IMG/VR virus record: IMGVR_UViG_3300046007_009781
Span: 1-64,000 of that record
DNA length: 64,000 nucleotides
Reading direction: 5' to 3' (one strand)
Source: a virus
Shown here: piece after piece, positions 9,395-58,270 of the stretch
Layout: each line of letters begins with the position of its first letter
How positions within the stretch are numbered: the first letter of the stretch is position 1
Notes under the pieces: model-generated
The model's database searches: none
Seen by the model: only the letters and a program-made list of their open reading frames with translations
Told to the model about the DNA's origin: nothing
Position numbers and translations under genes: made by a program

Positions 9395-9824
9395 CGACTT
9401 GTTCTACATCAACATTACATTTTTTTAAAAATTCAATACCATCAACACTGCGGTATTGCTCTCCATAAAATACTCTAGAAATACCTGCTCCGTAAATGCT
9501 TTTAGCACACTCCAAACAAGGAGAATGAGTGATAAACATAGTTGCACCAAGACCACCTTCATTACCTCTTGCTAACTTGTCTAGGGCATTTCGCTCAGCA
9601 TGTAGAACTTCAGGTTTAGTTTCTAAAAATCTTATTTCACCGTTAGGCCATCGTATTTCATCTTCACAATTATTGTCCCATCCAGACGGCATCCCATTGT
9701 ATCCGATGCTAATAATTCTGTCGTCTTTAACAACGATAGCACCAACATGTAAGCGTCGAGCAGTGCTACATTCAGCAAATGTCTTTGCTGTTTTCATGTA
9801 TGCATTAATTAATTTTGTTTTCAT
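9387..9824 (-). CDS. cd: dCMP deaminase
   Basis: 145 residues. It converts dCMP to dUMP, the substrate of the thymidylate synthase in this window. The zinc site is complete: HAE at 75-77 with the catalytic Glu77, and PCLEC with Cys103 and Cys106. The N-terminal segment (CSTARRLHVGAIVVKDDRII) is typical of the ComEB/dCMP-deaminase group. Length is close to the bacterial and phage enzymes. It overlaps genes on both sides within the modification operon and lies away from DHFR and ThyA, which is odd for a nucleotide enzyme and suggests it hitchhikes on this transcript. Confidence 0.93.
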   Translation of the reverse strand: MKTKLINAYMKTAKTFAECSTARRLHVGAIVVKDDRIISIGYNGMPSGWDNNCEDEIRWPNGEIRFLETKPEVLHAERNALDKLARGNEGGLGATMFITHSPCLECAKSIYGAGISRVFYGEQYRSVDGIEFLKKCNVDVEQVDV

Positions 9825-10512
9825 ATTTTTTTAACCAACTTGTTTCAGGCCAATTTGTTCCATTAGGGTTAAAGTTTTCGATTATGTCTTTATATAAAAT
9901 TAAATCTTTTTGAAAATACCTGTCAAATGCAAAATTTCTATATATATTATTTTTTAAATTTTGTTTCCATGTAAAGTCAAAATGTGTTTTAATTTTTTCA
10001 TAAATCAACTTTTCTTCATCATTACTGCTATTCTGATATGTTTGATCTAAACCGGATAAAAGTATTTGCCCTGAATGATTTAACAACATTGTAGTTAACT
10101 TGACCACCAGATCATTACTATAATAATCTATGGGTATCCAATCAATTTTGTAACAGTATTCCCCCAATGCACTATAATAACTTTCACTGTGAGAATCTAC
10201 AAATGGAATATCTAACATAACTTCAAAGATTTCCGGATTGTCTAAAATTTTTGGATGATTATGGTAAATGTAATGCGCTAGGCCTCTGTGTCTACGGTCA
10301 ATGGGATTTCGAATATGAGAAAATACTTTCCCATTCCAATTAATTTGATTTATGGGGATAGATTTCCAACCGTAGTTTTCTATTAAATTTAAATAAAAAA
10401 GACTGCTGGCGCACTTATAGGTTCGAATATATGTTATACTACCACAAGTAGCTGCTTGAAGGCCTTTATATTCAGATGTTATTGTTTGCAGAAAGTATGC
10501 AACATCGAACAT
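9805..10512 (-). CDS. Sulfotransferase-like protein (first of three)
   Basis: 235 residues. Sulfotransferases move the sulfuryl group of PAPS to a hydroxyl or amine. Residues 25-40 (SITYIRTYKCASSLFY) match the 5'-phosphosulfate-binding loop, and KVFSHIRNPIDRRHRG (62-77) matches the 3'-phosphate-binding element with Arg68. It is followed (3' side of its strand) by dCMP deaminase and preceded after one base by the APS kinase fusion that could make its donor. There is no signal peptide or membrane span. The C-terminal half is divergent, so the acceptor cannot be predicted. The family call is fairly safe; activity is inferred. Confidence 0.75.
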   Translation of the reverse strand: MFDVAYFLQTITSEYKGLQAATCGSITYIRTYKCASSLFYLNLIENYGWKSIPINQINWNGKVFSHIRNPIDRRHRGLAHYIYHNHPKILDNPEIFEVMLDIPFVDSHSESYYSALGEYCYKIDWIPIDYYSNDLVVKLTTMLLNHSGQILLSGLDQTYQNSSNDEEKLIYEKIKTHFDFTWKQNLKNNIYRNFAFDRYFQKDLILYKDIIENFNPNGTNWPETSWLKKYENKIN

Positions 10513-10513
10513 T

Positions 10514-11386
10514 TTACAGTAAACCTTGTTTTGTCATTTCTTCTCTAATTTTAGTACCACTTATACTTGTAATGCTTTCGTCAAATGTTTCTTGTTCTAT
10601 TTTGTATCCAACATCTCTGCCGTAGGTAATATTTACTATATTAGGAACAACTTGAATAGTATACTGTCCTTGATAGAAAGGATCAAGATCTCTTTTAATC
10701 AAGTTAGTAACTTGTTCAATAGCAAACGGATTACTACCTTGCCAACCTTGACAATCACGTATCATAATACAAACTTGTCCAGTTTTTGCAATAGCACGTT
10801 CAAATAGAGCGCGATGTCCTGCATGCCAAGGTTGCCAACGTCCTAGCATTTGAACTGTTTCTTTTTTCCAATCAAAAATAGGTCTACGTTTATTTTGTAA
10901 AATATGTTGCCCTACAAACGGTACCCATTTTTCTGCGTTTTGTTCGTTAATTCTGAAATCATATATTTCAGGGGCCACAAAAGCTTTGTTTGTATCTTCG
11001 TATCTCCCTTGATCAATTGTATCTATCCAAATCGTCCAATCGGCTTTGAAATTATGTCTCATTTCTGGTAAGGGGGCCACAAAGTCACAAATTACAAAAT
11101 CGCCTGAACATTCCAATGCAAACTGAAACATTCGTAAACTTTGTCTAATTCTACCTTCCTTAGTGAAATCCCAATCATTAAATTTCTTACGTATTTCATC
11201 TGCGTTAAACCAATTAACCTTTGCCTTCCATGCTTTAGGTAAATTTTCTAAATGTAGCATGTGTACTAAAGGCATATGAGAAATATCAGAATAGTTTTCT
11301 AAATAGTATTTTAATCTTTCAGCAAAATAAGTTTTTCCTGCACCAGGCAAACCCATTATCAAAATTCTTTTTGCATGTTGGTTCAT
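10514..11386 (-). CDS. APS-kinase-like / HxGH nucleotidyltransferase fusion
   Basis: 290 residues with two domains. Residues 8-160 look like adenylylsulfate kinase: Walker A GLPGAGKT (12-19), FNADEIRKKFNDWDF (60-74) and ICDFVAPLPEMR (99-110). APS kinase phosphorylates APS to PAPS. Residues 178-290 are a HxGH-type nucleotidyltransferase: LGRWQPWHAGH (181-191) and SISGTKIREEM (274-284). The second domain could be an ATP-sulfurylase-like activity feeding the kinase, or an NMN- or cytidylyl-type transferase; the motifs alone do not decide. An AAGGAG ribosome site precedes ATG 11386. The neighbouring sulfotransferase gene supports a PAPS-supply role. Confidence 0.78.
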   Translation of the reverse strand: MNQHAKRILIMGLPGAGKTYFAERLKYYLENYSDISHMPLVHMLHLENLPKAWKAKVNWFNADEIRKKFNDWDFTKEGRIRQSLRMFQFALECSGDFVICDFVAPLPEMRHNFKADWTIWIDTIDQGRYEDTNKAFVAPEIYDFRINEQNAEKWVPFVGQHILQNKRRPIFDWKKETVQMLGRWQPWHAGHRALFERAIAKTGQVCIMIRDCQGWQGSNPFAIEQVTNLIKRDLDPFYQGQYTIQVVPNIVNITYGRDVGYKIEQETFDESITSISGTKIREEMTKQGLL

Positions 11387-11416: not shown

Positions 11417-12898
11417 TTAGGATAAAACTTTTAAACTATATAATTTTTCGAATCTATCTGCATCTAACCTATCATTGACCATAGGTTCACCCCGAATATT
11501 AAGACTTGTATTTAATAACATAGGACACCCTGTCAAAACAAACCACTTTTCCAATAGTTCTCGTAAGCCGGACCCGTCTTTGGGTACTGTTTGCACTCTG
11601 CTAGTATCGTCGATATGTACTATCGCAGGATATAAATCCGGCATTTTACATTTTGCTACAAATTGCATATAAGGACTGTTGGATGTTGGCATATCAAAAT
11701 AATCTGAGGCTAACTCCTCTAATATAACAGGCGCAAAAGGTCTAAACTGCTGTCTTTGTTTAATATTGTTCACTTGCATTTTGATATCTGTACCTCTGGG
11801 ATCTGCTAACAAACTGCGATTACCTAATGCTCTTGGGCCAAATTCAGCTCGACCATTTGCTACTCCTGCAATTTTATTTGTTAATAACTCATCCAATAAA
11901 TTGGAAACAGGATAAACTCCAGGTATGTTATGTCCCAAAAAAGCATTCTTCCAATTTAATTTTTTACCATATGCCAATGCAGCAGCACCTAAACTACTGC
12001 CTGCATCCCCGGGATTAGGCATTATCCAAACATCATTAAAATAATTAAACAGATTTGAATTAACAACACAGTTTAATGCAACTCCTCCCATGTATACTAA
12101 ATTTTCAGACCAATTAAAATTTCTGGCCCTACGCATTACATTGCAAACCAAATTTTCTATTAGTTGTTGAGCAGCTCCTGCAATATCCCAAACATGCCAA
12201 TCGTTCAATTGCTCAGTCTGATGCCCTATGTGAAAATTTTGTTTGAAATCTAAATCCCATTCATTTTCTATGAATAAATTTTTAAAACTATTCAAACGAT
12301 CTGTATTGCGGTTACCATAAGCACTCATGCCCATTAAGATGTATTCTTCATCTAAAGGTTTTAGACCCACTTGTTGTGTCATTGCGCTGTAAAATAATCC
12401 TATACTCTGAGGATATCGTTTAGACCATAATTTTTTATATACAGCACGATCATTAACATATTCTGCTGCCCATATACTAACTGTGTCCCATTCACCAATA
12501 GCATCGATTACTACTACAGTGGCATGATCAAAATTACTGGTTTGAAAACCTGCTGCGGCATGACTAAGATGATGCGAATAAGATTTTATACTTTTAGGAA
12601 GGACAATTTGATCTTTTAATTGTGCTTTTAGAATTTGTCGAACTGTTAATTTATCCCATTCGATTTTTTGTCCAGAATAAAAGTGTCTAGTTTGTTTTAA
12701 CACTGGATTTTCGTAATAGGCTATTGTATTAAATGGATAATAGGCTAAACAATCATTTATTATTCCATCACTTAGATTAGAGTCATGTTTAATTTTACTG
12801 TATCGTTCACTATGACCTGCAAAAAGAATTTCGCCGTGACAGTCAATGACCGACATGGCTGCGTCATGAAATCCGGCTGAAATTCCTAAAATATTCAT
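11417..12898 (-). CDS. NodU/CmcH-family carbamoyltransferase
   Basis: 493 residues. The family carries out O-carbamoylation from carbamoyl phosphate and ATP on sugars, antibiotics and Nod factors. The N-terminal Kae1-like domain has ISAGFHDAAMSV with His11, the metal-binding SHHLSHAAAG (His109, His110, His113) and GGVALNCVVN (271-280). The C-terminal domain has EFGPRALGNRSLLADPRG (352-369), which binds the carbamoyl donor. It is shorter than many bacterial members but keeps both domains. Its ATG overlaps the stop of a 33-residue gene, and the APS kinase fusion follows after 30 bases. The acceptor is unknown; a glycan or small molecule made by the same cluster is most likely. Confidence 0.92.
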   Translation of the reverse strand: MNILGISAGFHDAAMSVIDCHGEILFAGHSERYSKIKHDSNLSDGIINDCLAYYPFNTIAYYENPVLKQTRHFYSGQKIEWDKLTVRQILKAQLKDQIVLPKSIKSYSHHLSHAAAGFQTSNFDHATVVVIDAIGEWDTVSIWAAEYVNDRAVYKKLWSKRYPQSIGLFYSAMTQQVGLKPLDEEYILMGMSAYGNRNTDRLNSFKNLFIENEWDLDFKQNFHIGHQTEQLNDWHVWDIAGAAQQLIENLVCNVMRRARNFNWSENLVYMGGVALNCVVNSNLFNYFNDVWIMPNPGDAGSSLGAAALAYGKKLNWKNAFLGHNIPGVYPVSNLLDELLTNKIAGVANGRAEFGPRALGNRSLLADPRGTDIKMQVNNIKQRQQFRPFAPVILEELASDYFDMPTSNSPYMQFVAKCKMPDLYPAIVHIDDTSRVQTVPKDGSGLRELLEKWFVLTGCPMLLNTSLNIRGEPMVNDRLDADRFEKLYSLKVLS

Positions 12899-12996: not shown

Positions 12997-14088
12997 TTAA
13001 GATCCCGATTTATTGTTGTATTTACTACTGTAATCATATCCAGGTTTAAGTCTGTTGATCTGTTGTTGATAATAATCTTTGTCCGTCCAACTGTAATCAT
13101 AAACTGATTGTGCTTGTCCTGCTTGAATTTTATAAATGTCTAAATGATCCGACAATTTTTGCCAGATTGTTTCTACATTTACTGTTCCAAAACTTTTTTC
13201 TAAATCTACTTGCCCTACAGGATGATAACCAAAATTATACATCGTATTATCTAAGTCAAAACCATTACGTTGTAACCAAGGTCTGAACTTACGCATTTCG
13301 TCTGTATACCAAGGATGAAGTCCGTTATAACATACATCACGTGCCCATTCAATGTCAAATTCTCCACTGTAATATTTAAGATGTGTAATTGCTTCGCAAA
13401 CTACTTGATCGATATCTGCCCCGTTTTCATCTCGAAAAACTTCATATAATGTTTTACCAATTTGGCTCCAATGAAGATATACCTCACCTAATTTTCTGTC
13501 ATAATTAGATTCGTCAAATGATTGTTTTAAATTTTCGGGGTATTCATATCTAGTGGCATTTAGAAAAGTTGTAATCTGACTGGGTCTTATCCATTCAGGT
13601 GCTGTAACTTTTTTTCTTTGACTTAATATCAAGCTTTCAGCTTCGTGGCATAGATTGTTTAGTTGTCTTATTGCAAATTTAGTTTCATAATTTGCTTGAG
13701 CATAATAACTGCTTAACTTCCAAACTGTGCCTTGAAGATTTTCAAAATGATTATGAAGTTTGTTTAATAAATCTTGGTTGGGCTTTAAAGTTTGTGGATC
13801 TCTGAGATTGTTTATTTCAAATTCTTCAACAATTTGATATTCGTCTCGGAAATAAGAATTGATAACAGATTTGGCCCACGATAACTCTTTACAGATATAT
13901 TCTAAAGAACGGTGGCTGTCTGGAAATCCTAAAAAACAAAAATTTTTTTCTAAATACCGTGTTTGATTTAAAAGCTCTTGAAGAGCCGCATACCACAATT
14001 TTGCTATTGGTGTATCATATACTTTTATATAGTAAACAAGAAAATCATCTTTTCTTAAAGGGTTTCTTAATGTAACTTCAACATTCAA
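12997..14088 (-). CDS. Unknown phage protein beside radical-SAM genes
   Basis: 363 residues, mostly helical, rich in Tyr, Trp and Asn. A conserved-looking core is YLHWSQIGKTLYEVFRDENG (about 205-224), followed by CEAITHLKYYSGEFDIEWARD. No cysteine cluster, P-loop, signal peptide or membrane span. The start overlaps the end of the first radical-SAM gene by 11 bases, and the 33-residue gene begins at its stop, so it belongs to the same operon. It may be a substrate, chaperone or partner for the radical-SAM enzymes, but that rests on position alone. I do not recognise the family. Confidence 0.7.
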   Translation of the reverse strand: MNVEVTLRNPLRKDDFLVYYIKVYDTPIAKLWYAALQELLNQTRYLEKNFCFLGFPDSHRSLEYICKELSWAKSVINSYFRDEYQIVEEFEINNLRDPQTLKPNQDLLNKLHNHFENLQGTVWKLSSYYAQANYETKFAIRQLNNLCHEAESLILSQRKKVTAPEWIRPSQITTFLNATRYEYPENLKQSFDESNYDRKLGEVYLHWSQIGKTLYEVFRDENGADIDQVVCEAITHLKYYSGEFDIEWARDVCYNGLHPWYTDEMRKFRPWLQRNGFDLDNTMYNFGYHPVGQVDLEKSFGTVNVETIWQKLSDHLDIYKIQAGQAQSVYDYSWTDKDYYQQQINRLKPGYDYSSKYNNKSGS

Positions 14089-15379
14089 TTTGATTCCACC
14101 AATTTAAAATTTCAGGTCGTCGACTAATAATTTCCTCAAAAGTTATAGATTGAGTTCTAATAGTTTCAAGTTGTAATATTCTTCGTTTGCCCTTTTTTAA
14201 TCCCGATTCATAATCATCTGGCCATTGTTCTTGAAAAGTAGGTCTAGTTTTTAGCTGGACAAGCATGTCCCTCAGAGTCGTATTTGTCAAGATAGTATTA
14301 TTTAATTGTTCATCTATCCAAGAATGTAAAAGTTCTTTGGGTAGTGTCAAGGGAGACATGACTATGTCCGGGCTAAAACTAAAAATTACTTTGGCTAGAA
14401 TGTCTACCTTTTCTTGTTGTCCAAGTTGCTGAATATTAGTAATTTCGAACATTCCGGGCAAAGTGAGCGTAAAGTCAATTCGCATTTGACGTCTGTGACG
14501 TTGGATTCTAGTTCCTTGACGGAAGTTTTCAAGCCACGAATCGTAATTGAGACCTGTTCTAATATATTCTCCAATCGATCCTGTTCCGTCCAAACTTGCA
14601 CATATTTGCCAATCACGTAACCCAGTAAGAATATCATCATAAAGATCAACACCTTTATAACGAACTCTGCTGAGATTTGTATTATATCTTGCGTAAACAT
14701 TTGGACCATCCCCTAATTCAATTATTCGCTGCATATACCGCCAGTGCTGCTCATACATCAAAGGCTCACCGCCCACCCAATAAACTTCCTCCACTCGGTG
14801 TTCTTCTACTGCCTGAGCGAATTCTTGTTCAATTTGAGTTGTTTGAAATGATTCGATTTGCTGTTTTATCTCGGGAATCATCCATGAATTTTTTGGATCT
14901 GCCCAATTTATCATGTTGTGTTGTCTTTGCTCACTTTCCCATGAACTACTGAGCATATCGCCGCACATCCGGCATTTAAAATTACATAAATTGCTAAATC
15001 TGTAATCCCAGCTCACAGGTTTCATATCTGTGTAGCCGTCAAGGCGTGTTTTTTCCATCGCCTCATTATACTTATGCCCGAATAAACTATTAAAATAACT
15101 ACGGTAAACAGATGTATTCAAAAGTTTATCGTTACATACCTCGCACTCTGGCAGAGTTTCTCCCCGCATCATCCGTTGTCGAACAGAACGCATATGTTCA
15201 CCATTCCAGTGTTGGTCCAAAGTAATTGGTATATATTTTCCTGTACCATTACTAGTATCGATATATTGTTTAAAGTTTTGTGCAGGTTCACGGCTGGCAC
15301 AGCACATTCTGCGTTCAGTTTGTGGACTTAAATACGTATGAGTCCACGGAGCCATACATAAAGTGTCGGGTTTATTCAT
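14078..15379 (-). CDS. Radical SAM protein with N-terminal twitch domain (copy 1)
   Basis: 433 residues. Radical-SAM enzymes use a [4Fe-4S] cluster and SAM to make a 5'-deoxyadenosyl radical. The cluster motif is CNFKCRMC (Cys132, Cys136, Cys139), followed by the GGEP SAM-binding element near 204. Before the core lies a separate Cys set, Cys8, Cys26-Cys27, and Cys79-x2-Cys82, which fits an N-terminal twitch domain holding an auxiliary iron-sulfur cluster, as in the class named twitch domain-containing radical SAM proteins. CMAPWTH at the start is shared in form with copies 2 and 3. It overlaps the SGNH-like gene before it and the unknown gene after it. Substrate unknown. Confidence 0.88.
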   Translation of the reverse strand: MNKPDTLCMAPWTHTYLSPQTERRMCCASREPAQNFKQYIDTSNGTGKYIPITLDQHWNGEHMRSVRQRMMRGETLPECEVCNDKLLNTSVYRSYFNSLFGHKYNEAMEKTRLDGYTDMKPVSWDYRFSNLCNFKCRMCGDMLSSSWESEQRQHNMINWADPKNSWMIPEIKQQIESFQTTQIEQEFAQAVEEHRVEEVYWVGGEPLMYEQHWRYMQRIIELGDGPNVYARYNTNLSRVRYKGVDLYDDILTGLRDWQICASLDGTGSIGEYIRTGLNYDSWLENFRQGTRIQRHRRQMRIDFTLTLPGMFEITNIQQLGQQEKVDILAKVIFSFSPDIVMSPLTLPKELLHSWIDEQLNNTILTNTTLRDMLVQLKTRPTFQEQWPDDYESGLKKGKRRILQLETIRTQSITFEEIISRRPEILNWWNQIEC

Positions 15380-16022
15380 AAAAATTAGAAATTAAAAATT
15401 TCGAAATTTGCTGATGCTCTTGTTTGTTAGGATGTCTCCCTTGCAATAACCATCGCCCAGTAATTTTAGTCAAATTATCAATTTCTTCTGTCACAGTAAA
15501 TTCTTTAAGATCGATATTTTTACTGACACATAATTTTTGTATCAGTAACCTATAATTTTTAAATTTATTTTCTAAATTGTCAGTTAATAATTTGACCCTC
15601 AGAGTATTATAGTAGTTATAAACATCATTTAATTTCTCTTTCACATTGGACGTAATTTTAGCAAGTCTATGATTTTTAATAAATGGCATTTCGTCGATAT
15701 TATTATCTGTAAAAGCACCATAATTAAAATTAAATGTCCACGTCATGTTATTATTTTCCCATGCTTCTCTATGCAAAGATGTCCATCCGATTATACAATC
15801 AGTATAATCGTTTGTAGTTAGTGCATTGACGATTCGATGAAAAATCATTTCATTACTTGCCCCAGGATAGGCTATATTTACATAATCAGCTTGAAGATGA
15901 TCTGCAATAAATTTTCCATAACTGTTTTGAATGTTCTCTTGACTAAACCAATGATGAACTGTTTCTAATCCATGAGTTATACTACAGCCAGCTACTAATA
16001 ATTTTCTTTTCATATTATTCAT
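15372..16022 (-). CDS. SGNH/GDSL-hydrolase-like protein
   Basis: 216 residues. The N-terminus LLVAGCSITHG (8-18) resembles the block I nucleophile Ser of SGNH hydrolases. YPGASNEMIFHRI (about 53-65) fits the block II Gly and block III Asn region. GRHPNKQEHQQI near the C-terminus supplies a His in the position of the catalytic HP element, although the Asp expected three residues before the His is replaced by Gly-Arg. The family deacylates or esterifies sugars and lipids. It is set between radical-SAM copies 1 and 2 with 8-base overlaps on each side. Activity is plausible but the triad is incomplete by eye. Confidence 0.65.
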   Translation of the reverse strand: MNNMKRKLLVAGCSITHGLETVHHWFSQENIQNSYGKFIADHLQADYVNIAYPGASNEMIFHRIVNALTTNDYTDCIIGWTSLHREAWENNNMTWTFNFNYGAFTDNNIDEMPFIKNHRLAKITSNVKEKLNDVYNYYNTLRVKLLTDNLENKFKNYRLLIQKLCVSKNIDLKEFTVTEEIDNLTKITGRWLLQGRHPNKQEHQQISKFLISNFYE

Positions 16023-17232
16023 ATCCCATTGTTTTTGCTATCTCTGGATGAGTATCCATAAAATTTTGATTGCGATACTCATCAGTCTGTTTCATTCGTC
16101 TTAGAAATTCCTTACCATCGCTACCCGACCCGATTTCAATAAATGTAATTAAATTATCAATTTCTTTTTGATATCTGGTAGATTTCCAAAAAGTATTTTT
16201 TAACTTATTCAACACTAATTCCTTTGCGTCAAGCGTCATATACTGAACGCTCATATGATTAGGACTATGCAACATATTGAAATGAACACTGCCGAACGGT
16301 TTAGTACTAGCCCACTCTAATAGTTCATCCAGATAATATACGTTTTGAATATTGATAGTAAAACATAGTTGAGTAGTAATGTTAGGACAATCTATGTCTT
16401 TTGTAAAGTGCACCATGTCTATAATTTCATTGGCTCGATCCCATTTAGCTCCATAACGTTCATATTCAAATCTATCTGCTACATTATCAATGCTGAACGC
16501 TATATCTACACGACCAAATTGTTGCCAAACCATGGACCTCTCACCAAGTGGTTGAGTTGCATTAGTATTATAATGAATATCAATATTACGACTGTGCCCA
16601 GCTTCGGCAGCGTATTTTAGTAATTCCCAATGTTCTTCTATTAGCCATGGCTCACCGCCAGTAAATTCAAGATACTTAATGTTAGGTAACAAGGTTTTCA
16701 AATTGTCCCAAAATGCAGGACTTTCTTCAGGCCATTTTCCGTTCTTTAACCAAGTGTATGCTATGTGTTTTTTCTTATCTGCGTCCTTAGGCAAATAATC
16801 CATTTCTTCTGCAGCCCACTTACTGCTAGACCAGCTACCACATATACGGCATTTAAGATTACATATATTTCCTAACTTTAAATCTAAGAACCACAATTGA
16901 TCGGGCCGATCATTGCTCCAATCAACATTAGCATATAATTCTTTTAATCGTATACGACTGTTAATACGTTTACTAGTTCTGCCGGCAGCTTCTTCATTCC
17001 AACACAATTTACATGTAGAAGGTTTTTCTCCTGCCCGAAACTGCTGTCTGAGTTGCTGCATATATTTGCTTTTATATGCATCCTCCAGAGTTGAAGTTCT
17101 AAGATCTAATTTTATACCTTGTTCATCAGTAATTTCTTCCCTAGCCAAACAACAAGGTCGCATTGTGCCCATTGGACTAGTTTCTATACTAATCCAGGGC
17201 AATAAACAAATAGTAGCCGGTAATTGTTTCAT
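16015..17232 (-). CDS. Radical SAM protein with N-terminal twitch domain (copy 2)
   Basis: 405 residues. The radical-SAM cluster ligands are Cys124, Cys128 and Cys131 in GNICNLKCRICGSW. TGGEPW lies further on and binds SAM. The N-terminal auxiliary set is Cys9 (CLLPW), Cys27-Cys28 (RPCC) and Cys74-x2-Cys77 (CKLC), the same spacing logic as copy 1. The C-terminal third lacks a clear extra cysteine cluster. It shares an 8-base overlap with the SGNH-like gene downstream, and ATGA coupling with copy 3 upstream. By its PW start it belongs with copies 1 and 3 rather than 4 to 6. Confidence 0.88.
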   Translation of the reverse strand: MKQLPATICLLPWISIETSPMGTMRPCCLAREEITDEQGIKLDLRTSTLEDAYKSKYMQQLRQQFRAGEKPSTCKLCWNEEAAGRTSKRINSRIRLKELYANVDWSNDRPDQLWFLDLKLGNICNLKCRICGSWSSSKWAAEEMDYLPKDADKKKHIAYTWLKNGKWPEESPAFWDNLKTLLPNIKYLEFTGGEPWLIEEHWELLKYAAEAGHSRNIDIHYNTNATQPLGERSMVWQQFGRVDIAFSIDNVADRFEYERYGAKWDRANEIIDMVHFTKDIDCPNITTQLCFTINIQNVYYLDELLEWASTKPFGSVHFNMLHSPNHMSVQYMTLDAKELVLNKLKNTFWKSTRYQKEIDNLITFIEIGSGSDGKEFLRRMKQTDEYRNQNFMDTHPEIAKTMGYE

Positions 17233-18569
17233 AATGATTTAAACGGTTTCAGCTCAGAAAAAACTTCCCAAAAATTTTCCCCTCTGGCTTTATCTAAAGC
17301 ATAAAGTTCAACTTTGAACTTGGACCAATCTCTGGATTTATCATTATTAGATTTTATTAAATTAATAATACTTTCAAATCCTGTTGTTGCTCTTTTTAAA
17401 TTGTCTTGTGGTCTAAGCCATTCTAAATGATTTTCATAAGCAGGTATTAATATTTCGTCTTTAATAGATTGTGGAAATATGTCTACTCTATACCAGTCTG
17501 GTCCTAACAGAGGATTTACATTAAAATCTTTTGGTTTGACATATCCTAAGTCAACCCACTCTTTATGGAAATCTAATACATGTAAAACATTCATTGCACT
17601 AATGGTTGCAGCAATATAAAAATCAACATGTGGCACTTCTTTCATCATACGTTTTCTATTCTGTACAGTCTGTGCCCAGTCTGTGCCTTTACGTAGTAAT
17701 TCTGCTCTTGCACCACTGGCATCCAAACTTGCCCCAACACTGACATTTTTAAAATGTTTCCAATACTCGAATACATGTTTATCTTTGAAAGACAATTCGC
17801 TAAAATTAGTATTGTAATGAATACGAACATCTGTTTTGCCTAAATCTATTAATCTTTCTAGTAAGTAGTAGTGCTCCTTCATAATCAAAGGTTCACCACC
17901 AGCAAAATAAATTTGCTCTAAATAAGGTATATGGGGTTCCATTTGATCCATCATGTTTTCTTCATTGCCTGTTGTATATTCTATCCTGGCCATTGGGCGA
18001 CCTAACACGTCAGGAGCTTTTTTATACAATTTTACATGATCGTTATACCAATTGCTGCTAAAGATTGGTCCGCAAGTTCTGCATCTAAAATTGCAAAGAT
18101 TACTGAATCTTACATCCCAATACTTAAGTTGGAAAGTTTCATACTCACCATCTGCAGATGTCTTATCTACTTCATTGATGTAATGTCCATAATTTCTATT
18201 AGAGTCATTGCGCATACTAAAAAATCCGTTAGACTCTTGTTCATAACATTTAGTGCATTGTTTACTAGGTTTTTCTTCTAACATATTTTTTCGGACTTGA
18301 CGATACCCTTCTTGGTTCCATACTTCTTTCATTGTATTTTTTCTAAGATCGCCAACTGGGTGCCAGTAATCACCTAAACAACATGGATAGACCCGTCCAT
18401 CGGGGTAGGCATGCATATGTACCCACGGTAACATACAAAAATAATCGCTGCCCACAAGTTTAAATTTTTGTTCTTCTGTTAAACTTTCAAAATCAATGAA
18501 ATATGGAATTTTTGATTTATAGTCATATCCTTTTTTATAAAAACTTACAATTTTATTTTCTTCGCTCAT
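17229..18569 (-). CDS. Radical SAM protein with N-terminal twitch domain (copy 3)
   Basis: 446 residues, with about 35 extra N-terminal residues compared with copies 1 and 2. The auxiliary set is Cys45 (CMLPWVHMHAYPDG), Cys63-Cys64 and Cys105-x2-Cys108. The radical-SAM motif is SNLCNFRCRTCG with Cys159, Cys163 and Cys166, then AGGEPL. It is closest in form to copy 1: both have WDYRFSN or WDVRFSN right before the cluster and similar stretches such as NTN after it, which points to duplication. It is coupled by ATGA overlaps to the copies on both sides. Substrate unknown. Confidence 0.88.
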   Translation of the reverse strand: MSEENKIVSFYKKGYDYKSKIPYFIDFESLTEEQKFKLVGSDYFCMLPWVHMHAYPDGRVYPCCLGDYWHPVGDLRKNTMKEVWNQEGYRQVRKNMLEEKPSKQCTKCYEQESNGFFSMRNDSNRNYGHYINEVDKTSADGEYETFQLKYWDVRFSNLCNFRCRTCGPIFSSNWYNDHVKLYKKAPDVLGRPMARIEYTTGNEENMMDQMEPHIPYLEQIYFAGGEPLIMKEHYYLLERLIDLGKTDVRIHYNTNFSELSFKDKHVFEYWKHFKNVSVGASLDASGARAELLRKGTDWAQTVQNRKRMMKEVPHVDFYIAATISAMNVLHVLDFHKEWVDLGYVKPKDFNVNPLLGPDWYRVDIFPQSIKDEILIPAYENHLEWLRPQDNLKRATTGFESIINLIKSNNDKSRDWSKFKVELYALDKARGENFWEVFSELKPFKSL

Positions 18570-19912
18570 AACGTGTTATACCATTTCATTAAATTAGGGA
18601 AAGCCACTTCAAAGTTTTTTCCGCGGCGTATATCATACTGTTGATAAAATTTCTTAAAATCATGTCTCAATGATTTCAAATCAAACGCTTCACTGTGAGG
18701 AGTTTTTACTATGTCAAGATAATCTATTAATCGTGTTACATGAGCTAGTTCATGGCCATGCAAGTAATTATTGCCTTTATGTTTGTCTAACCATGTTGTC
18801 AAGTTGTTTTTATAATCTGTCCTTAAATTATCTGGCAATACTAATGGACTTTGGAAGCTAGGAAATCTTAAAATATTCAAAGTAAAATTGGGAAAATCTC
18901 TGCCATATTGTTTTTTAAAATCTACTAACAAATCTAAAAATTTAGGCAAGCTATCTAAACATAAAGCGTTCACAGTACACATAACATGCAAACCTCGTAG
19001 TTTTTTACTAGAAGACAATCTACGAACATTGTTTAACCATGCATCCCAATTTAAACCATCCCTAATATATTCAGCGTGAACACCAAAGCTTTCATTACTG
19101 GTGTATAGATCAAATTCTAACCCATCAACTGCAGTCAACAATCTGTCTATGTCAGTTTCAGGCCCTAAGTTACTGTTAATAGCCAATCTGGTTTGACTTT
19201 TTCCTCGATTTTGTTTAAACCAATCTAATAACTTCCAAGTCGAACCGCTCATTAATGGTTCTCCTCCTGTTATTCTTAATTCTTTAAGAGTACGGTGTAA
19301 GTCTGAATCCCACCAGTTAAAAAATGCTTCTACATAAGGATTTACTTCACCTAGTTTATAAAGTTGACTACTATCATGTGTATGAGTAAAATGATTTCTA
19401 CCGTCACTAATCAAATTTTGATAAGCACCATTCTTTTTAATATCATTAACCCACGTGGTGCTAAACGCAGGATTGCAATAACTACATGCAAATTGACAAG
19501 TTCTGTCAAATGCAATTTCCAAAGTTTGTAAATCCACATCTTGATCGCTTGGGGTTCGAAAGGCAATGTCTAAATCCGCTTCTGTGTAAATTTTTGTTTT
19601 ATAAACTCTATCACTTATAGAGTCTCTACCAATATCCTCAATCTTCCAACAATATTCGCAGCCCGAAGGACGTTGTCCTTGTTGCATCTGTTGTCTTTCT
19701 GTCTTTTTCTTAATGGTGTTGTGTAAAGCTTTGGGATTTTTTAAAACATCATTGATATCAACCTTATGAGGTAATGGATGATGACAACTTGTAGTCATGC
19801 CGCTACCTAACCAAATGGTAGCGTTATACCATTTGGCCGCACAAAAAGATTCTGACTTTATATCTATCACTCTTTTTTTATATTCTAAATCTGTTTCATA
19901 TTTCATATGCAT
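18566..19912 (-). CDS. Radical SAM protein with N-terminal twitch domain (copy 4)
   Basis: 448 residues. It belongs to a second subgroup that starts CAAKW rather than C-PW. The auxiliary set is Cys24, Cys43 (SCHHPLPHK) and Cys85-x2-Cys88 (CEYCW). The core motif is CQFACSYC (Cys139, Cys143, Cys146), then TGGEPL. It pairs with copy 6: both have S-C-x-H-P-x-x-H, a PxALHNT stretch, QRPxxCxYCW, and NPYVEAF before the GGEP element. A second in-frame ATG two codons downstream is an alternative start. It overlaps copy 5 by 10 bases and copy 3 by four. Substrate unknown. Confidence 0.88.
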   Translation of the reverse strand: MHMKYETDLEYKKRVIDIKSESFCAAKWYNATIWLGSGMTTSCHHPLPHKVDINDVLKNPKALHNTIKKKTERQQMQQGQRPSGCEYCWKIEDIGRDSISDRVYKTKIYTEADLDIAFRTPSDQDVDLQTLEIAFDRTCQFACSYCNPAFSTTWVNDIKKNGAYQNLISDGRNHFTHTHDSSQLYKLGEVNPYVEAFFNWWDSDLHRTLKELRITGGEPLMSGSTWKLLDWFKQNRGKSQTRLAINSNLGPETDIDRLLTAVDGLEFDLYTSNESFGVHAEYIRDGLNWDAWLNNVRRLSSSKKLRGLHVMCTVNALCLDSLPKFLDLLVDFKKQYGRDFPNFTLNILRFPSFQSPLVLPDNLRTDYKNNLTTWLDKHKGNNYLHGHELAHVTRLIDYLDIVKTPHSEAFDLKSLRHDFKKFYQQYDIRRGKNFEVAFPNLMKWYNTL

Positions 19913-21045
19913 AAAAGTTCTTTAATGTTGTTTGGCAAAGCAGAGGACCTTCTATGGTCCCATTCATCAATAAAATATTTAAACTGTTTATGATACCCAA
20001 CATTATATTGTTCCGACTGTAATGCAGAACACAACGACTCTAATCCAAATGTATAATCTTTATTTTGAATTTGACCAATAAATTCAATTATAGGCTTTCT
20101 CACTTCAGGAGACAACACAGCAAACGTTTGTATTTTTGGATACAAACAATTACTGATAGTTAATGCTATAACGCAATCACGCATTTCATTTCTAAGATCA
20201 GTTATATAATTATAAAAATTTTCAAAATCTAATACTGTTACGGCCGTCATTAAACTTGATATAGAAATTTTTTTTAACTTAGAATTTTTTAAATAATATT
20301 TCAAATTTTGAAAAAATTTTTCAAAATTTAATCCGTGTCTCACATATTCTGCAATAGTCTTGGTTGCATCAATACTTACATTAAGACTTATTAGAAATTT
20401 ATCTTCGTATGACAGCAATCTATCAATAGTACGGAAGTCTACCATAAAATTGCTTGTAAGTCGAACTTCTTTGACTTTTGCATTATCTAATATTTGCCAT
20501 AAACTTTTGTATAAAAAAGGTTCTCCGCCGATTACAGTTAATATTTCAGGACTTTCTTTTGCCAATAAATTAAAATTAGTTTCTCTATTAGATTTATTTT
20601 TTTCAAGAATTTCGTAATTGTATCTATCTGTAAAAATTGGATACATTTTATTACGAATATCCTTTTCCCATTCACTACTAAATTTAGGATTACAATATTG
20701 ACATTGTAAATTACAAGTATTACCTAAATTTATTTCTAAGTTCTTAATAGATTTATTTAAATTTTGATATTCCGAATACGACTCAAAATTAAAATCCTTC
20801 AGGTGCTCCATTCTCAGACTGAATTCATTGTTGTTTTCTACCTCCCAACAATACTTGCAAGAATCATCTTGTATATTGTTTAAAAGATTGAATTTTTGGT
20901 TATCTAAAACAGTCTTATAATCTTTTTCAAACAGTAAAGGTACTGCTTTACAACAACTATAGGCAAAATTGTAGGTACTATTTATAACTAATTCATCCCA
21001 TTTAGCTGGACAAAAAGTTTTAGATATATTACTTTGATCGGGCAT
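19903..21045 (-). CDS. Radical SAM protein with N-terminal twitch domain (copy 5)
   Basis: I start at ATG 21045 (380 residues); a GTG at 21054 would add three. This is the shortest copy. Counted from the GTG, the auxiliary set is Cys15 (FCPAKW), Cys34-Cys35 and Cys66-x2-Cys69 (CKYCW). The core motif is TCNLQCQYCNP with Cys114, Cys118 and Cys121, followed by IGGEPF. It shares the AKW start with copies 4 and 6 but has lost the SCxHPxxH segment and the long region before GGEP. Base composition is especially AT-rich. It overlaps the flanking copies. Substrate unknown. Confidence 0.86.
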   Translation of the reverse strand: MPDQSNISKTFCPAKWDELVINSTYNFAYSCCKAVPLLFEKDYKTVLDNQKFNLLNNIQDDSCKYCWEVENNNEFSLRMEHLKDFNFESYSEYQNLNKSIKNLEINLGNTCNLQCQYCNPKFSSEWEKDIRNKMYPIFTDRYNYEILEKNKSNRETNFNLLAKESPEILTVIGGEPFLYKSLWQILDNAKVKEVRLTSNFMVDFRTIDRLLSYEDKFLISLNVSIDATKTIAEYVRHGLNFEKFFQNLKYYLKNSKLKKISISSLMTAVTVLDFENFYNYITDLRNEMRDCVIALTISNCLYPKIQTFAVLSPEVRKPIIEFIGQIQNKDYTFGLESLCSALQSEQYNVGYHKQFKYFIDEWDHRRSSALPNNIKELLCI

Positions 21046-22420
21046 GATGTGCACATTCTAAATAATACTCTCTCATTTCCGGAAAAGTGACTACAAAATT
21101 TGTTTTTCTTCTAGTGTCATGTTCTTTAAAAAATTTGTAAAAATTTGCTTTTTGTTGATTAACATAAGTGGGATCTAATTTCTGCCCTTCTTTCATGTAA
21201 TCAATGACCCGTTGAAGACGCTGCAGTTCGTAATCCTTAAATCCTTTAAAAGGACGATTGCTAGTTTCTAATTTAGTCAACATAAAACTCCAAACTAGTT
21301 CAAGTTGATCAATATAGCTTTCGGGTAGTAGTTGTATATTTTGCCATTCTGGCTTTCGTAAAATCGGAGTGTCAAACCAGACACGTTGATAAGTTTTGCT
21401 ATATATTTCTCTAAGACCATGGATATTAGTTATTAAGTCGCCTACACTGGTAACGTTAAGATTGTTCATGGTTATAATAAAAGTCAAACTGCTTCGATTA
21501 GGAACTTCATTAAGAAATCGATTTACATTATTCCACAATCTTTCGAAATTTAAGCCAAAACGAATATATTCAGCACGATCAAACACACTGTCTAAACTAA
21601 CATACTGCATAAAATGTTCAATTTTTTTGTCGTCGTTGTCGCACAGTCTTTTGCAATAATCCAAATATTTTTCAAAAAGTTTAGGCTCTACACTGAAATT
21701 ACTGGTAACGTTTAAGTGTAATTTATGACTAGGATTAGCTAACACATAATCGAAAACTCGATACGTATTTGGATCCAATAAAGGTTCACCTCCGGTCATT
21801 CTAAAATGTTCTAACTCAGGATATAATTCAGGCCACCAACGCCAAAACGCTTCTACATAAGGGTTATACTCACGGGCAGGAATAGGACGACGATTGCCAG
21901 TAAAATGCTCTGGAGCATTATGAGGTACTAAGGTCGGATATGCACCATATCTAGACACTTCATCTGCCCAAGAACTACTAAACTGAGGGCTGCAATAACT
22001 ACATTTAAGATTACAAGCATGATTAAAATTAACTTCCACATAACTGGGCAAGACATCTTCATCTCCAGTACTGTTTTTAATAGTATCGAAATCTTTAGCT
22101 GCCCATGGTTCCCCGCTGCGATAATGTCTGTCGCTTAAGTTGCCTAAATCTTCCTGAGTCCAACAATAACTACACTCGGCAGGTCGTTGTTGCTGCAGCA
22201 TGATTTTACGCTGCTCTTTTTTGTAAGGTGTGTTGTGTAATGCACTGGGATTATCCTGCAATAGATCTGCGGGCACAGAATGTAAAGGAGGGTGATAACA
22301 ACTGTTGTTTAACCCGGTAGGTAAGTGAAAACTAACTTGCTTCCATTTAGCAAGACACAATGAATTGCCTAATTTTTGTTTAGCATCTTCTGCAGAACTT
22401 AAAAATACACTTTTACTCAT
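21029..22420 (-). CDS. Radical SAM protein with N-terminal twitch domain (copy 6)
   Basis: 463 residues, the longest copy. The auxiliary set is Cys22 (CLAKW), Cys41 (SCYHPPLH) and Cys83-x2-Cys86 (CSYCW). The core motif is HACNLKCSYCSP with Cys136, Cys140 and Cys143, then TGGEPLLDP. It is the closest relative of copy 4 along most of its length. The C-terminus ends in HDTRRKTNFVVTFPEMREYY, matching YDIRRGKNFEVAFPNLMKWY in copy 4, so both ends are conserved in the pair. It is the first radical-SAM gene of the run in transcription order and follows a sulfotransferase gene after 15 bases. Confidence 0.88.
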   Translation of the reverse strand: MSKSVFLSSAEDAKQKLGNSLCLAKWKQVSFHLPTGLNNSCYHPPLHSVPADLLQDNPSALHNTPYKKEQRKIMLQQQRPAECSYCWTQEDLGNLSDRHYRSGEPWAAKDFDTIKNSTGDEDVLPSYVEVNFNHACNLKCSYCSPQFSSSWADEVSRYGAYPTLVPHNAPEHFTGNRRPIPAREYNPYVEAFWRWWPELYPELEHFRMTGGEPLLDPNTYRVFDYVLANPSHKLHLNVTSNFSVEPKLFEKYLDYCKRLCDNDDKKIEHFMQYVSLDSVFDRAEYIRFGLNFERLWNNVNRFLNEVPNRSSLTFIITMNNLNVTSVGDLITNIHGLREIYSKTYQRVWFDTPILRKPEWQNIQLLPESYIDQLELVWSFMLTKLETSNRPFKGFKDYELQRLQRVIDYMKEGQKLDPTYVNQQKANFYKFFKEHDTRRKTNFVVTFPEMREYYLECAHHARSK

Positions 22421-22435
22421 AAGGTTAGATTGTAA

Positions 22436-23074
22436 TTAGATTTGAGGCAATTTGAAATTTGCTAATAACTTTTCTATTTCTTCTGCATTTGAAAAAATAT
22501 CATATAGTGTGATATTGGCATAATCATTTGGAGACCATTTTGTTACGCAATTTTCCGATGTTAAATACTTTAATTCATCGTAATCAATAACTTCATCGCA
22601 TTTAACAAAATAAGTGATCAATTGTTCAGATATCCAAGACTTAATTTTGTTGATATCATAATAAATTTTCTCAGTCTGACTGCTCATATAATTTAAATAG
22701 TCGCTGCTGGATGCTGAATTATGCTTGAACTTAAATGTTTCGTTTTGTTCAAAATTTTTCATCCAAAAGTACCAACTAATAAAATGATTTACTTTATTGG
22801 TTCTTGTAAGTTTTATCACATGCCAATCTGCAATCATCCAAGGATGTGCGACTAAATCAAATTTGGGATCTGTTGCATTAAGTATTGCTATTTGATATAC
22901 ATTTGCTATTTTACTGTGAATAACACGAAAATCTATGTCAGCTACTAACTCACCAACGAATCCACTTTTAGCAAAATCTACTTTTTCATTTATAAGACTG
23001 CTTAAAAAATGTGTGCCAGATCTGTAATAACTTACAATCAAAGTTCCTTTTTTATTTTTATCAAATAGTTTCAT
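22436..23074 (-). CDS. Sulfotransferase (second of three)
   Basis: 212 residues. The 5'-phosphosulfate loop is IVSYYRSGTHFLSSLI (13-28), close to the classical form. The 3'-phosphate element is HVIKLTRTNKVNHFISWYFW with Arg91 and Ser100 at the expected spacing. It should bind PAPS; the acceptor is unknown. No signal peptide, so it would act in the cytoplasm on a precursor or a small molecule. It overlaps the glycosyltransferase-like gene before it by four bases and leads directly into the six radical-SAM genes, which makes a shared pathway likely. Confidence 0.85.
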   Translation of the reverse strand: MKLFDKNKKGTLIVSYYRSGTHFLSSLINEKVDFAKSGFVGELVADIDFRVIHSKIANVYQIAILNATDPKFDLVAHPWMIADWHVIKLTRTNKVNHFISWYFWMKNFEQNETFKFKHNSASSSDYLNYMSSQTEKIYYDINKIKSWISEQLITYFVKCDEVIDYDELKYLTSENCVTKWSPNDYANITLYDIFSNAEEIEKLLANFKLPQI

Positions 23075-23991
23075 AGTTTGTTTTCTAGGATTTTCCTAAT
23101 ATCATTTTCAGTTACAGTTAATCCTACATTCACATGTGATGACTTATAATGATGTTTAAAAAATTTACTTTGTTCTGCATTTAATTCTACAATCGGCAAA
23201 CTTAATCTTAGTTTCAACTGCTCTGTTAATTCATTAGGCGGACAATGTTGAAAATTCTCCCAAAGTTTTTTCAACTTATCAAAATCTTGTACTTCGGTAT
23301 AATTCCAGTCAGTAAACATAGTCAGATATGTACCTAATCTGGCACCGTAAATGGCCCACTCACCGTTTTCTATATCCCTTCCCACTGATTGCCATATACA
23401 CAAATGATCATAATTCCTTTGATAGACACGTTGTTCAAACTCTGTTAAAGAAGGACGTTTTCCTCTGTCTAAACACATCTTAACGCCTTCTCTAAACCCA
23501 GCACGCCAAGCTTGAAAAGGAGTTGCATTAGGATAAGTTGTGCTATAACAGTCATGCATGGCCCAATATTTAGGATCAAAACAAAACTCAACTTGTGTTT
23601 CATCTCTGCCATCTGTTGCTTCATGAGTTCTCATATTGCGTACAAACTCTTTGGTCCAGCAACTTATTCCCCCATTACCATACATCAGACCATTGATAAT
23701 ATTTCTAGCTTTCCATCTAAACACACAATCCTTATTTTGTTCATTTAATTCTAATCTTAAATTAAAAAAATCTGGATCTGGCAGATTGTCCCCGTCAATA
23801 AGAATAAAACGATCTGTGTCACTGGCTTGCCCAGCTGCTTTGTGTGCAGCATCACTGCCCTTGATTCCGTCGACACGTTTAGCCCAAGGAACTAAATTTT
23901 GAATTTTAATCCAAAATTCTTCCCGTTTAGGTTCGTCGTAAGTTAAAAAAATACAGTCTAAGTCAGCTACGTCGATTACTTCTGTAGTCAT
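23071..23991 (-). CDS. GT-A-like glycosyltransferase with DxD motif
   Basis: 306 residues. RFILIDGDNLPDPDFF (61-76) contains DGD at 66-68, the metal and nucleotide-sugar motif of GT-A folds, after an N-terminal strand CIFLTYDEP. ARNIINGLMYGNGGI (95-109) and AWRAGFREGVKM (about 161-172) follow. These two stretches recur in the last third of the 545-residue protein at 7757-9394, which lacks the DGD. No membrane segment. The start overlaps the gene before it by 29 bases. It probably adds a sugar in the same pathway as the flanking sulfotransferase. Donor and acceptor are unknown. Confidence 0.72.
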   Translation of the reverse strand: MTTEVIDVADLDCIFLTYDEPKREEFWIKIQNLVPWAKRVDGIKGSDAAHKAAGQASDTDRFILIDGDNLPDPDFFNLRLELNEQNKDCVFRWKARNIINGLMYGNGGISCWTKEFVRNMRTHEATDGRDETQVEFCFDPKYWAMHDCYSTTYPNATPFQAWRAGFREGVKMCLDRGKRPSLTEFEQRVYQRNYDHLCIWQSVGRDIENGEWAIYGARLGTYLTMFTDWNYTEVQDFDKLKKLWENFQHCPPNELTEQLKLRLSLPIVELNAEQSKFFKHHYKSSHVNVGLTVTENDIRKILENKL

Positions 23992-24352
23992 AGTGTTCTA
24001 TGTTCTCGTATTCATCTTCTGTGGTTAATGGTAGGCTGGCATTATTTTTGACCACTGCAACACCTTTTTCACTTCTTATCAATCCAGGACGTACAAATCC
24101 CATATGTTGTGGAATAGGTTCAGGCTTACCATTTTCAATTCTATATCTGACATAATTTTTATGTATAGACTCATCTACGACTACAAAATTTCCGTCTTCA
24201 ATAGGATCAGATTTTTGATTAGTTGTTCTATAAATTATGCCTTCTTCATTATAATACAGTCTATATTCATATTCAATCTTTTTGGGCGGATCTAATAAAT
24301 CAAATGCTTTAATAAGTTCTAGTAAGGCAGGATCTTCTATATTGTTGTTCAT
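23963..24352 (-). CDS. Conserved phage protein, unknown function
   Basis: 129 residues with a predominantly beta core: YEYRLYYNEEGIIYRTT, then GNFVVVDESIHKNYVRYRIENG. This pattern resembles small hypothetical proteins of aquatic T4-like phages. No membrane span or catalytic motif. It overlaps its upstream neighbour by 44 bases and its downstream neighbour by 29, so it is embedded in the glycosyltransferase part of the operon. It may be a small partner of one of these enzymes; this is inference from position. Confidence 0.7.
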   Translation of the reverse strand: MNNNIEDPALLELIKAFDLLDPPKKIEYEYRLYYNEEGIIYRTTNQKSDPIEDGNFVVVDESIHKNYVRYRIENGKPEPIPQHMGFVRPGLIRSEKGVAVVKNNASLPLTTEDEYENIEHYDYRSNRRS

Positions 24353-25181
24353 AATGTTCTAACCTTTCATCAGTTATAAAACTCTTTTCATAATAGTGAA
24401 TCGGATCATATTGATTCAAGTTATGTATACGTATCATGTTTTCATCTTGTTCTACTGTAGTCATTTGTTGCCAGTCACCCATGTCTGACCAATTTTGTAT
24501 AGCTGACTTCATATGAACAAAATTGATAAATTGCAGACTAGGCAGTGTGCAGTTTTCCACTCCCAGTGTTTTTGCTGTAATTGCATAAAGTACATCAGTG
24601 CTAGGCACATTTTCTCTACAATTTTTTAAAATATTATTTTTCAAATAATCCCAATTATCTAATATTTGTTTTGCTGTATGAAAAAATTGATTGGCAAACT
24701 GACTAAATCTAAAATACATTAAACCATTGTACACATCCGGTAACTCATTATCATCAAAAAATTTTCTATATGTTCTTTTATCGGATAATTGTTGTCTATA
24801 ATTTTTACAACCCGTACTTAAAACAACATCTTTAAGTCTGAATGCAGTTAACCAATGGTCTATAGGTCTGGTCACTAACAAATCAGATTCTAATTTAATG
24901 GTTTCTTTAAAAGGAGTTAATGTAAATGCTTGACATTCGTTAGCAAATTTCCATTCCGAATTTTCATGGTTATAATCGTGTTCTAACTCTATTATGTAGT
25001 CAAACACTTCATGACATGAAGGTGTTAAACAAGCCGCAGTGGGTTTATCTACGATTACTGCATATTTCATTTGTCTATGAATAGATTTGAAATTACAGGC
25101 TTGTGCATATGCTAATCTCAAATAATCTGTGCTGCTGTTGTTTTGTGCAAACGTTAAAAAACCAACACCACTTTTATTCAT
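24309..25181 (-). CDS. GT8-like glycosyltransferase
   Basis: 290 residues. The N-terminus VGFLTFAQNNSSTDYLRLAY and MKYAVIVD (39-46) form a nucleotide-binding-like start. KETIKLESDLLVTRPIDHW (92-110) has ESD where GT-A enzymes carry DxD, and VYNGLMYFRFS further on matches the acceptor-side strand of GT8-type enzymes. The gene at 25174-26004 is its paralog, aligning through the N-terminal strand, the helix DYVKIA or DYLRLA and the acid motif. In the paralog the motif is the canonical DTD, while here the first Asp is Glu. It probably transfers sugar in the cytoplasm. Donor unknown. Confidence 0.7.
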   Translation of the reverse strand: MNKSGVGFLTFAQNNSSTDYLRLAYAQACNFKSIHRQMKYAVIVDKPTAACLTPSCHEVFDYIIELEHDYNHENSEWKFANECQAFTLTPFKETIKLESDLLVTRPIDHWLTAFRLKDVVLSTGCKNYRQQLSDKRTYRKFFDDNELPDVYNGLMYFRFSQFANQFFHTAKQILDNWDYLKNNILKNCRENVPSTDVLYAITAKTLGVENCTLPSLQFINFVHMKSAIQNWSDMGDWQQMTTVEQDENMIRIHNLNQYDPIHYYEKSFITDERLEHYEQQYRRSCLTRTY

Positions 25182-26323: not shown

Positions 26324-26338
26324 CTTGTGTTAAAAGTT

Positions 26339-53660: not shown

Positions 53661-53689
53661 TCAGTTACTTGTGCCCGAGGAGAATAAAA

Positions 53690-58269: not shown

Positions 58270-58270
58270 A

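Follow-up and report, generated by a model that had tools for sequence, protein, structure and literature searches.

An ordered operon of N-twitch radical-SAM genes in aquatic T4-like phages, with counterparts in Bdellovibrionota

We analysed a window of 64,000 nucleotides (positions 1 to 64,000 of the 67,399-base IMG/VR virus record IMGVR_UViG_3300046007_009781), in which six open reading frames (ORFs) on the minus strand at 14078–22420, here called c6 to c1, encode radical S-adenosylmethionine (radical-SAM) proteins. A previous reading from the letters alone (the sequence-only reading) had described them as six tandem genes of the twitch-containing radical-SAM family in a phage operon, and the ORF list confirms its coordinates. 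All six proteins exceed the curated cut-off of 170 bits for the NCBIfam family NF033640 (N_Twi_rSAM), with E-values from 1e-51 to 1e-120 (bit scores in Table 1), although c5 does so barely. The radical-SAM core, CX3CX2C and GGEP, is invariant across c1–c6, and N-terminal cysteines occur in all six, so the family assignment holds. The auxiliary N-terminal set that had been noticed is also present, as C..CC..CxxC in c1, c2, c3 and c5 and as C..C-x-H..CxxC in c4 and c6, where the His is invariant over 39 c6/c4 rows, bacterial rows included. The genes overlap or are tightly spaced, as in an operon, but they are not strictly tandem, since another ORF lies between c1 and c2 (Table 1). The pairwise identity between the six copies is merely 18–28%, which makes them old paralogues. 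The window encodes one further radical-SAM protein, the seventh, at positions 58259–59977, in fusion with a short-chain dehydrogenase; two distant relatives of it (L278:4259-5542 and 7169-8419) are found in the Bdellovibrionota island G051 described below.

The N-terminal region of the c3 family (positions 34–105) matches in sequence the twitch part of BtrN (E 0.002), which is an aminocyclitol dehydrogenase. The N-terminal ends of c2 and c3 match Pfam SPASM above its cut-off, and that of c1 falls slightly short of it. Together with the conserved cysteines, these matches support the predicted N-terminal twitch domain, which would bind a second iron–sulfur cluster. The AlphaFold2 (AF2) model of c6 is confident by its predicted local distance difference test score (pLDDT, Table 1), and its best folds in the PDB, viperin, SuiB, SkfB, anSME, BlsE, NifB and DesII, are mostly radical-SAM enzymes. 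The TM-scores by query length are about 0.3–0.36, so the fold match covers the radical-SAM part only.

Related viral loci were gathered by searches with c3, c5, c6 and W16, the gene that follows c1; an alignment of the six sequences was too divergent to serve as a genome query. The loci were made distinct by protein sequence, related phages among them are not fully independent, the viral contigs may be fragments, and the order counts are conditional on the presence of all five core copies (c1–c4 and c6). The order c6>c4>c3>c2>c1 is found in 87 of 87 such loci; in 81 of them W16 comes after c1, and 62 have a carbamoyltransferase inside the fetched stretch. Almost every operon gene overlaps its neighbour or lies within 10 bp of it (GT27 in 96/96 cases and c2 in 109/109, for example), and the operon stays tight where extra genes are inserted between core genes in related phages. 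The sequence-only reading had pointed to carbamoyltransferase and sulfotransferase genes as company to look for in other phages. The carbamoyltransferase is present in 48 of 50 W16 loci (for c1 and W11, see Table 1), and a Stf0 sulfotransferase is among the inserted genes. The c3 search gave 37 viral loci; among the matches listed for c6, 80 viral relatives span 66–100% identity; and 34 viral contigs chosen for c3 or c6 carry 5–14 N_Twi_rSAM genes each. Relatives of c5 are few (Table 1) and, the identical copy excepted, only 28–51% identical; c5 is accessory to the array and not part of its core. The operon is carried by numerous uncultured bacterial viruses from lakes and the sea. Cultured phages gave neither a near DNA match nor W16, and distant members of the family occur among 50,697 deposited phages only in the Vibrio phages K566 and K567 and in one single-cell contig.

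A tree of 44 rows, with its root not fixed, separates c1–c3 from c4–c6 (support 100/99.9), in agreement with the PW and AKW subgroups seen earlier in the letters. The accompanying proposal of local duplication within the phage was not borne out. A constraint holding all phage rows together, as a single phage clade, was rejected by the approximately unbiased (AU) test (p 8e-47), and c1, c2, c3, c4 and c6 each stand with their own Bdellovibrionota relative. Phage c6 joins Bacteriovoracaceae c6 (100/99), phage c2 joins Bacteriovoracaceae c2 (100/99), and the phage copies of c4 and c1 lie nested among Bdellovibrionota rows and one contig labelled Flavobacterium, as does c3 with weaker support (81/89); the c5 clade contains no bacterial row. 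The best reading of this tree is that the gene set would be a module shared with Bdellovibrionota, imported rather than expanded within phages. Because the phage c1 and c4 branches nest within bacterial ones, the tree, although unrooted, suggests capture from Bdellovibrionota-type bacteria. The Flavobacterium-labelled contig (L180, 7.6 kb) has relatives of c4, c3, c1 and c2 in another order, and is perhaps a misbinned phage or another bacterium.

In the bacteria, a Bacteriovoracaceae contig (L182) carries c4, c1, c2, c3, c2, c6 and c4 in a row, with a carbamoyltransferase relative farther upstream. In the Bdellovibrionota island G051, radical-SAM genes lie together with GDSL, NTP-transferase and choline-kinase/APH-like genes between BipA/Dus and YceG, flanks that indicate a chromosomal location. 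N_Twi_rSAM (E ≤ 1e-50) was found in 54 of 192 sampled Bdellovibrionota and W16 in 13 of the 192 genomes; all 13 also have an N-twitch radical-SAM gene (p 2e-8, a value confounded by ancestry), and the neighbours of W16 in bacteria are not conserved. In one of these bacteria (G219, L288:8392-10587), a W16 relative starts beside a secreted fibre protein whose C-terminus is of the S74 chaperone type. An Elusimicrobia metagenome-assembled genome (bin-0981; G038, L183-L195) has at least 72 N_Twi_rSAM matches, many of them forming the C-terminus of long tetratricopeptide-repeat (TPR) proteins in tandem runs.

On the minus strand, the array is flanked on one side by a putative tail-fibre block (W31, W30) and on the other by W16, the carbamoyltransferase and further genes that extend to about 7346 (Table 1, where names lacking Pfam support are motif readings). 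The window reads as that of a T4-like phage, with PHROG matches to baseplate wedge and hub proteins, an SbcCD-like nuclease and a late sigma factor; one ORF of 4534 codons at 29752–43356 encodes a giant tail-region protein. Tail fibres, glycosyltransferases (by motif only) and radical-SAM genes thus occur together as in a host-recognition cluster of the pelagimyophage type. The genes inserted in related loci include GDP-mannose dehydratase, UDP-sugar dehydrogenase, GHMP kinase, hexapeptide transferase, GDSL or DUF6071 (SGNH-like by reading), AMP-binding and B12-type radical-SAM genes, and many have no family; a 345-aa family found in 88 loci resembles a glycosyltransferase by motif only. The B12-binding radical-SAM gene, for example at L063:15497-17266, lies between core genes in a few phages. 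Two or more membrane-like segments were predicted in only 4 of 361 inserted ORFs, and the cluster ORFs of the window have none at all; hence no flippase or polymerase is encoded. W16 was ruled out as a known enzyme; its confident AF2 model gave no fold match in the PDB, nor did its sequence, and its ten relatives in BFVD are all uncharacterised phage proteins. A conserved H/E motif in W16 (LHxHFE, CHExE) predicts that it binds a metal.

Table 1. Features of the operon and its surroundings in the window.
Feature	Position	Strand	Evidence or remark
W11, 545-aa glycosyltransferase-like protein, by reading	7757..9394	-	no family match; in 42/50 W16 loci
dCMP-deaminase-like protein, by reading	9387..9824	-	ORF list
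235-aa protein, sulfotransferase-like by reading	9805..10512	-	no family match
Kinase fused to nucleotidyltransferase-like domain	10514..11386	-	APS_kinase 21.2 vs cut-off 21.1 bits; CTP_transf_like below cut-off
NodU/CmcH-type carbamoyltransferase	11417..12898	-	PF16861, PF02543, phrog_1601
W16, 363 aa, follows c1	12997..14088	-	AF2 pLDDT 91.5; c1 in 49/50 W16 loci
c1, core N-twitch radical SAM, PW type, most conserved copy	14078..15379	-	NF033640 296 bits; 68–81% identity across diverse phages
Variable 216-aa gene between c2 and c1, SGNH-like by reading	15372..16022	-	no Pfam/NCBIfam family
c2, core N-twitch radical SAM, PW type	16015..17232	-	NF033640 333 bits; sister of L182 c2, 100/99
c3, core N-twitch radical SAM, PW type	17229..18569	-	NF033640 401 bits; twitch matches BtrN
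c4, core N-twitch radical SAM, AKW type	18566..19912	-	NF033640 291 bits; groups with Bdellovibrionota c4
c5, accessory N-twitch radical SAM	19903..21054	-	NF033640 175.5 bits; 25 loci only
c6, N-twitch radical SAM, AKW type, first core radical-SAM gene of the operon	21029..22420	-	NF033640 320 bits; at least 184 viral relatives; AF2 pLDDT 92.8
Variable gene, sulfotransferase-like by reading	22436..23074	-	no family match
GT25, glycosyltransferase-like, invariant DGDN motif	23071..23991	-	62–74% identity across phages; no Pfam family
W26, small operon gene (129 aa)	23963..24352	-	no family match
GT27, glycosyltransferase-like, ESDLL motif	24309..25181	-	motif inference; no family match
GT28, glycosyltransferase-like, DTDYLV motif	25174..26004	-	motif inference; no family match
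W29, first gene of the operon, 105 aa	25964..26281	-	its sigma-70 promoter is conserved among phages
Sigma-70-type promoter region of the operon	26295..26333	-	window copy 9/12
Perfect 8-bp inverted repeat between W30 and W29	26317..26336	-	sequence
W30, putative tail-fibre gene upstream of the operon, separate unit	26339..27277	-	no family match
W31, tail-fibre-like gene	27294..28919	-	matches PHROG virion-structural and tail-fibre families
T4-type late promoter ATAAATA of W31	28944..28950	-	in 69/87 phages
gp55-like late sigma factor	53651..54565	+	phrog_12791, E 5e-76

Promoters were scored by simple consensus counts, with a sigma-70 site taken as TTGACA-16/18-TATAAT and matches counted out of 12; the signal at W29 was spotted in the same data that were later scored. 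A site of at least 10/12 precedes W29 in 67% of 85 phages, as compared with 4% in shuffled copies, 0–4% before most other genes tested and 13% before W16. A hairpin followed by a run of T is present in 65 of 82 gaps between W30 and W29, against 16% in shuffles, and many of these hairpins enclose the −10 box. In L010, L049 and their relatives, the terminator-like stem in this gap encloses the −10 box of the operon, and the predicted terminator and promoter (or operator) share the same bases. The T4-type late motif ATAAATA, common before W31 (Table 1), was not found once before GT28, GT27, GT25, c6, c4, c3, c2, c1, W16 or the carbamoyltransferase. It is strongly depleted in the window (9 copies versus about 46 expected); four of these copies stand a short way upstream of a gene start, and for three of the four the gene is a structural one. 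Sigma-70-like sites of 10–11/12 in the window include those of thymidylate synthase and the SbcCD-like pair, but one structural gene has a 10/12 site as well. The sigma-70 signal at W29, the late promoter at W31 and the encoded late sigma factor point to transcription of the operon from a host-type promoter, a class known at the level of sequence, separate from the late tail unit and probably early. Late co-transcription with the tail fibres had been considered, and was dropped after the sigma-70 signal and the hairpins before W29 were found.

We tentatively favour the view that the operon, from W29 to at least the carbamoyltransferase, encodes an early cytosolic pathway that modifies a sugar or glycan, probably aimed at the surface of the infected cell. 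For its chemistry, substrate, timing in infection and site of action we infer the following course. Host RNA polymerase would probably transcribe the operon early, and a soluble, cytosolic pathway would build or remodel a complex sugar. c6, c4, c3, c2 and c1 may act in succession on a single substrate, a sugar or a molecule that carries one, by radical reactions (oxidation, deoxygenation, epimerisation or carbon-bond changes); the glycosyltransferases would attach the sugar, and the carbamoyl-, sulfo- and acyl-transfer genes would decorate it. The proposal in the sequence-only reading that each copy may act on a different position of one product would fit the strict co-conservation and order of the core copies. 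The most likely destination of the product would be the envelope glycan of the infected cell, and there it could hide receptors from rival phages. This sugar pathway is supported by the fixed gene order, the overlap of the genes, the sugar-nucleotide genes and the near absence of membrane segments, and also by the alternation with GT8 genes in phage K566, the gene company in island G051 and BtrN as the nearest solved twitch. Furthermore, c1, c4, c6 and GT25 are 60–81% identical across phages while W30 is 29–48% identical, which argues for a constant small product rather than a changing protein substrate. A bolder form of the proposal, which we hold to be doubtful, is that a five-enzyme radical-SAM assembly line common to aquatic phages and Bdellovibrionota makes a new sugar or sugar–protein linkage, and that W16 is its partner and has a new fold.

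Several points weigh against the sugar pathway. The operon promoter of the window itself (Table 1) and its hairpin (−4.7 kcal/mol) are both weak examples, and a sigma-70-like site does not prove early expression. GT25, GT27 and GT28 are called from motifs only, with no Pfam or PHROG match, and GT25 and GT28 have no convincing match in the PDB; searches of the PDB with the glycosyltransferase profiles likewise gave nothing convincing. SPASM/twitch radical-SAM enzymes more often act on peptides, and the operon directly adjoins tail-fibre genes, which suits a virion target too. For the glycosyltransferase-rich radical-SAM cassettes of pelagimyophages, action on lipopolysaccharide is only assumed (PMC7029224).

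A virion target would mean that the operon acts in the cytosol on the tail fibres W30/W31, glycosylating or chemically altering them, so that receptor binding changes or the fibre is protected. The position of the operon immediately downstream of tail-fibre genes is fixed in diverse phages, all operon products are soluble, the W16 relative in one bacterium (G219) adjoins the gene for a secreted S74 fibre protein, and S74 fibre genes are commoner in Bdellovibrionota that have N-twitch radical-SAM genes (41/54 vs 54/138). However, its own sigma-70 promoter and hairpins set the operon apart from the late tail-fibre unit, and c1, c4 and c6 (64–81%) are far more conserved than W30, so we regard this explanation as unlikely. 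Fibre modification in the bacteria was rejected, since an N-twitch radical-SAM gene occurs in just 1 of 15 Bdellovibrionota genomes with at least 10 S74 genes, and genome size and ancestry confound the S74 enrichment. The promoter class and the bacterial counterparts lead us to prefer, by a little, a host-surface glycan to the virion. It is quite improbable that the radical-SAM proteins are maturases that make a modified peptide or protein, as for ribosomally synthesised and post-translationally modified peptides (RiPPs), to which the glycosyltransferases add sugar. Although c6 has SuiB, SkfB and anSME, all of them SPASM/twitch enzymes, among its best fold matches, viperin, DesII, BlsE and AprD4, with nucleotide, sugar or antibiotic substrates, match the c6 fold about equally. 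In several of the bacterial relatives there is a fusion to TPR arrays, which are modules that bind peptides, but the overlapping phage genes leave little room for a precursor, and the sole small ORFs, W29 and W26, have no precursor-like match. A RiPP maturase is recognised by a C-terminal SPASM/twitch domain plus a RiPP recognition element (RRE), whereas the SPASM match here is N-terminal; the general Pfam scan gave no RRE hit, and no dedicated RRE search was made.

Hypermodification of DNA, in which the carbamoyltransferase and glycosyltransferases would act on hydroxymethyl-cytosine and the radical-SAM enzymes would alter the adduct, would fit host-type expression and the dCMP-deaminase-like gene at the end of the operon, and a phage carbamoyltransferase of the same Pfam type modifies 5-hydroxymethylcytosine (5hmC) (PMC8670742). 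Yet the thymidylate synthases of the window and of nine related phages keep Asn177 (E. coli numbering) and the PPCH motif of the dUMP type, and modification of 5hmC was rejected because position 177 is Asn and not Asp. A thymidylate-synthase homologue is absent in 9 of 18 records, no Tet_JBP match was found in the 18 records, though the control of that search also gave none, and the bacterial relatives are chromosomal; altogether we consider DNA as the target very improbable. Least probable of all is that these are auxiliary metabolic genes which bend host iron–sulfur (Fe–S) or central metabolism and have no single dedicated product. Such a role has been proposed for the 12 radical-SAM genes of a T4-like marine genome (PMC5332604), and an A-type Fe–S carrier is encoded in 6 of the 13 array records searched. 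But the fixed order, the overlap and the company of sugar genes favour one pathway, and no NCBIfam equivalog of known metabolism is matched above cut-off by any of the six proteins. The carriers (one or two proteins each in G004, G005, G010, G018, G019 and G024) also answer in part the remark of the sequence-only reading that so many Fe–S enzymes are a heavy cost for a phage, and the Fe–S enzymes of the array would explain why such phages bring their own supply.

Five oxygen-sensitive Fe–S enzymes kept in a fixed order across very diverse phages imply a single valuable product for which fewer steps would not suffice. If the assembly line exists, one module would link host takeover by phages with the surface biology of Bdellovibrio-like bacteria; if the product of the sugar pathway remodels the surface of the infected cell, this would be an unusually elaborate virus-encoded glycan pathway. 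N_Twi_rSAM is a family without a known reaction, and because the operon offers a defined set, a defined order, a promoter-bearing first gene and bacterial counterparts, the chemistry should be testable by expressing one operon.

That such phages have many radical-SAM genes is already known. Nishimura et al. read the 12 radical-SAM genes and the Fe–S carrier of the T4-like marine genome TARA_ERS488813_N000010 as auxiliary metabolism (PMC5332604), and radical-SAM cassettes with many GT8 genes were placed in the host-recognition cluster of pelagimyophages, where modification of the O-chain was suggested, while freshwater SAR11 myophages were reported to be without radical-SAM genes (PMC7029224). 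The likeness to the present phages lies in the many radical-SAM genes and the glycosyltransferases near tail fibres. The portions of these two papers used here give counts or cassettes and a variable region; an ordered core, a counterpart in bacteria, a promoter class and W16 are absent from them. The literature searched, which did not include most subscription journals and bioRxiv preprints, yielded no account of the ordered set, of its counterpart in bacteria, of its promoter or of W16. The phage 5hmC carbamoyltransferase has the same carbamoyltransferase Pfam domains (PMC8670742), but the array phages have no thymidylate synthase of the dCMP-hydroxymethylase type. The Vibrio jumbo phages K566 and K567 have four N-twitch radical-SAM genes interleaved with glycosyltransferases of family 8 (GT8); their copies are about 23–25% identical to those described here, stand in another order and have no W16 or carbamoyltransferase in the stretch. 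BtrN, a radical-SAM dehydrogenase with a solved twitch, matches the N-terminus of the c3 family with a stretch from its own C-terminal half, and the same substrate is not implied. All six phage proteins are members of NF033640 by score; in that family, to which no reaction is assigned, the phage operon differs in that several diverged members form one ordered set.

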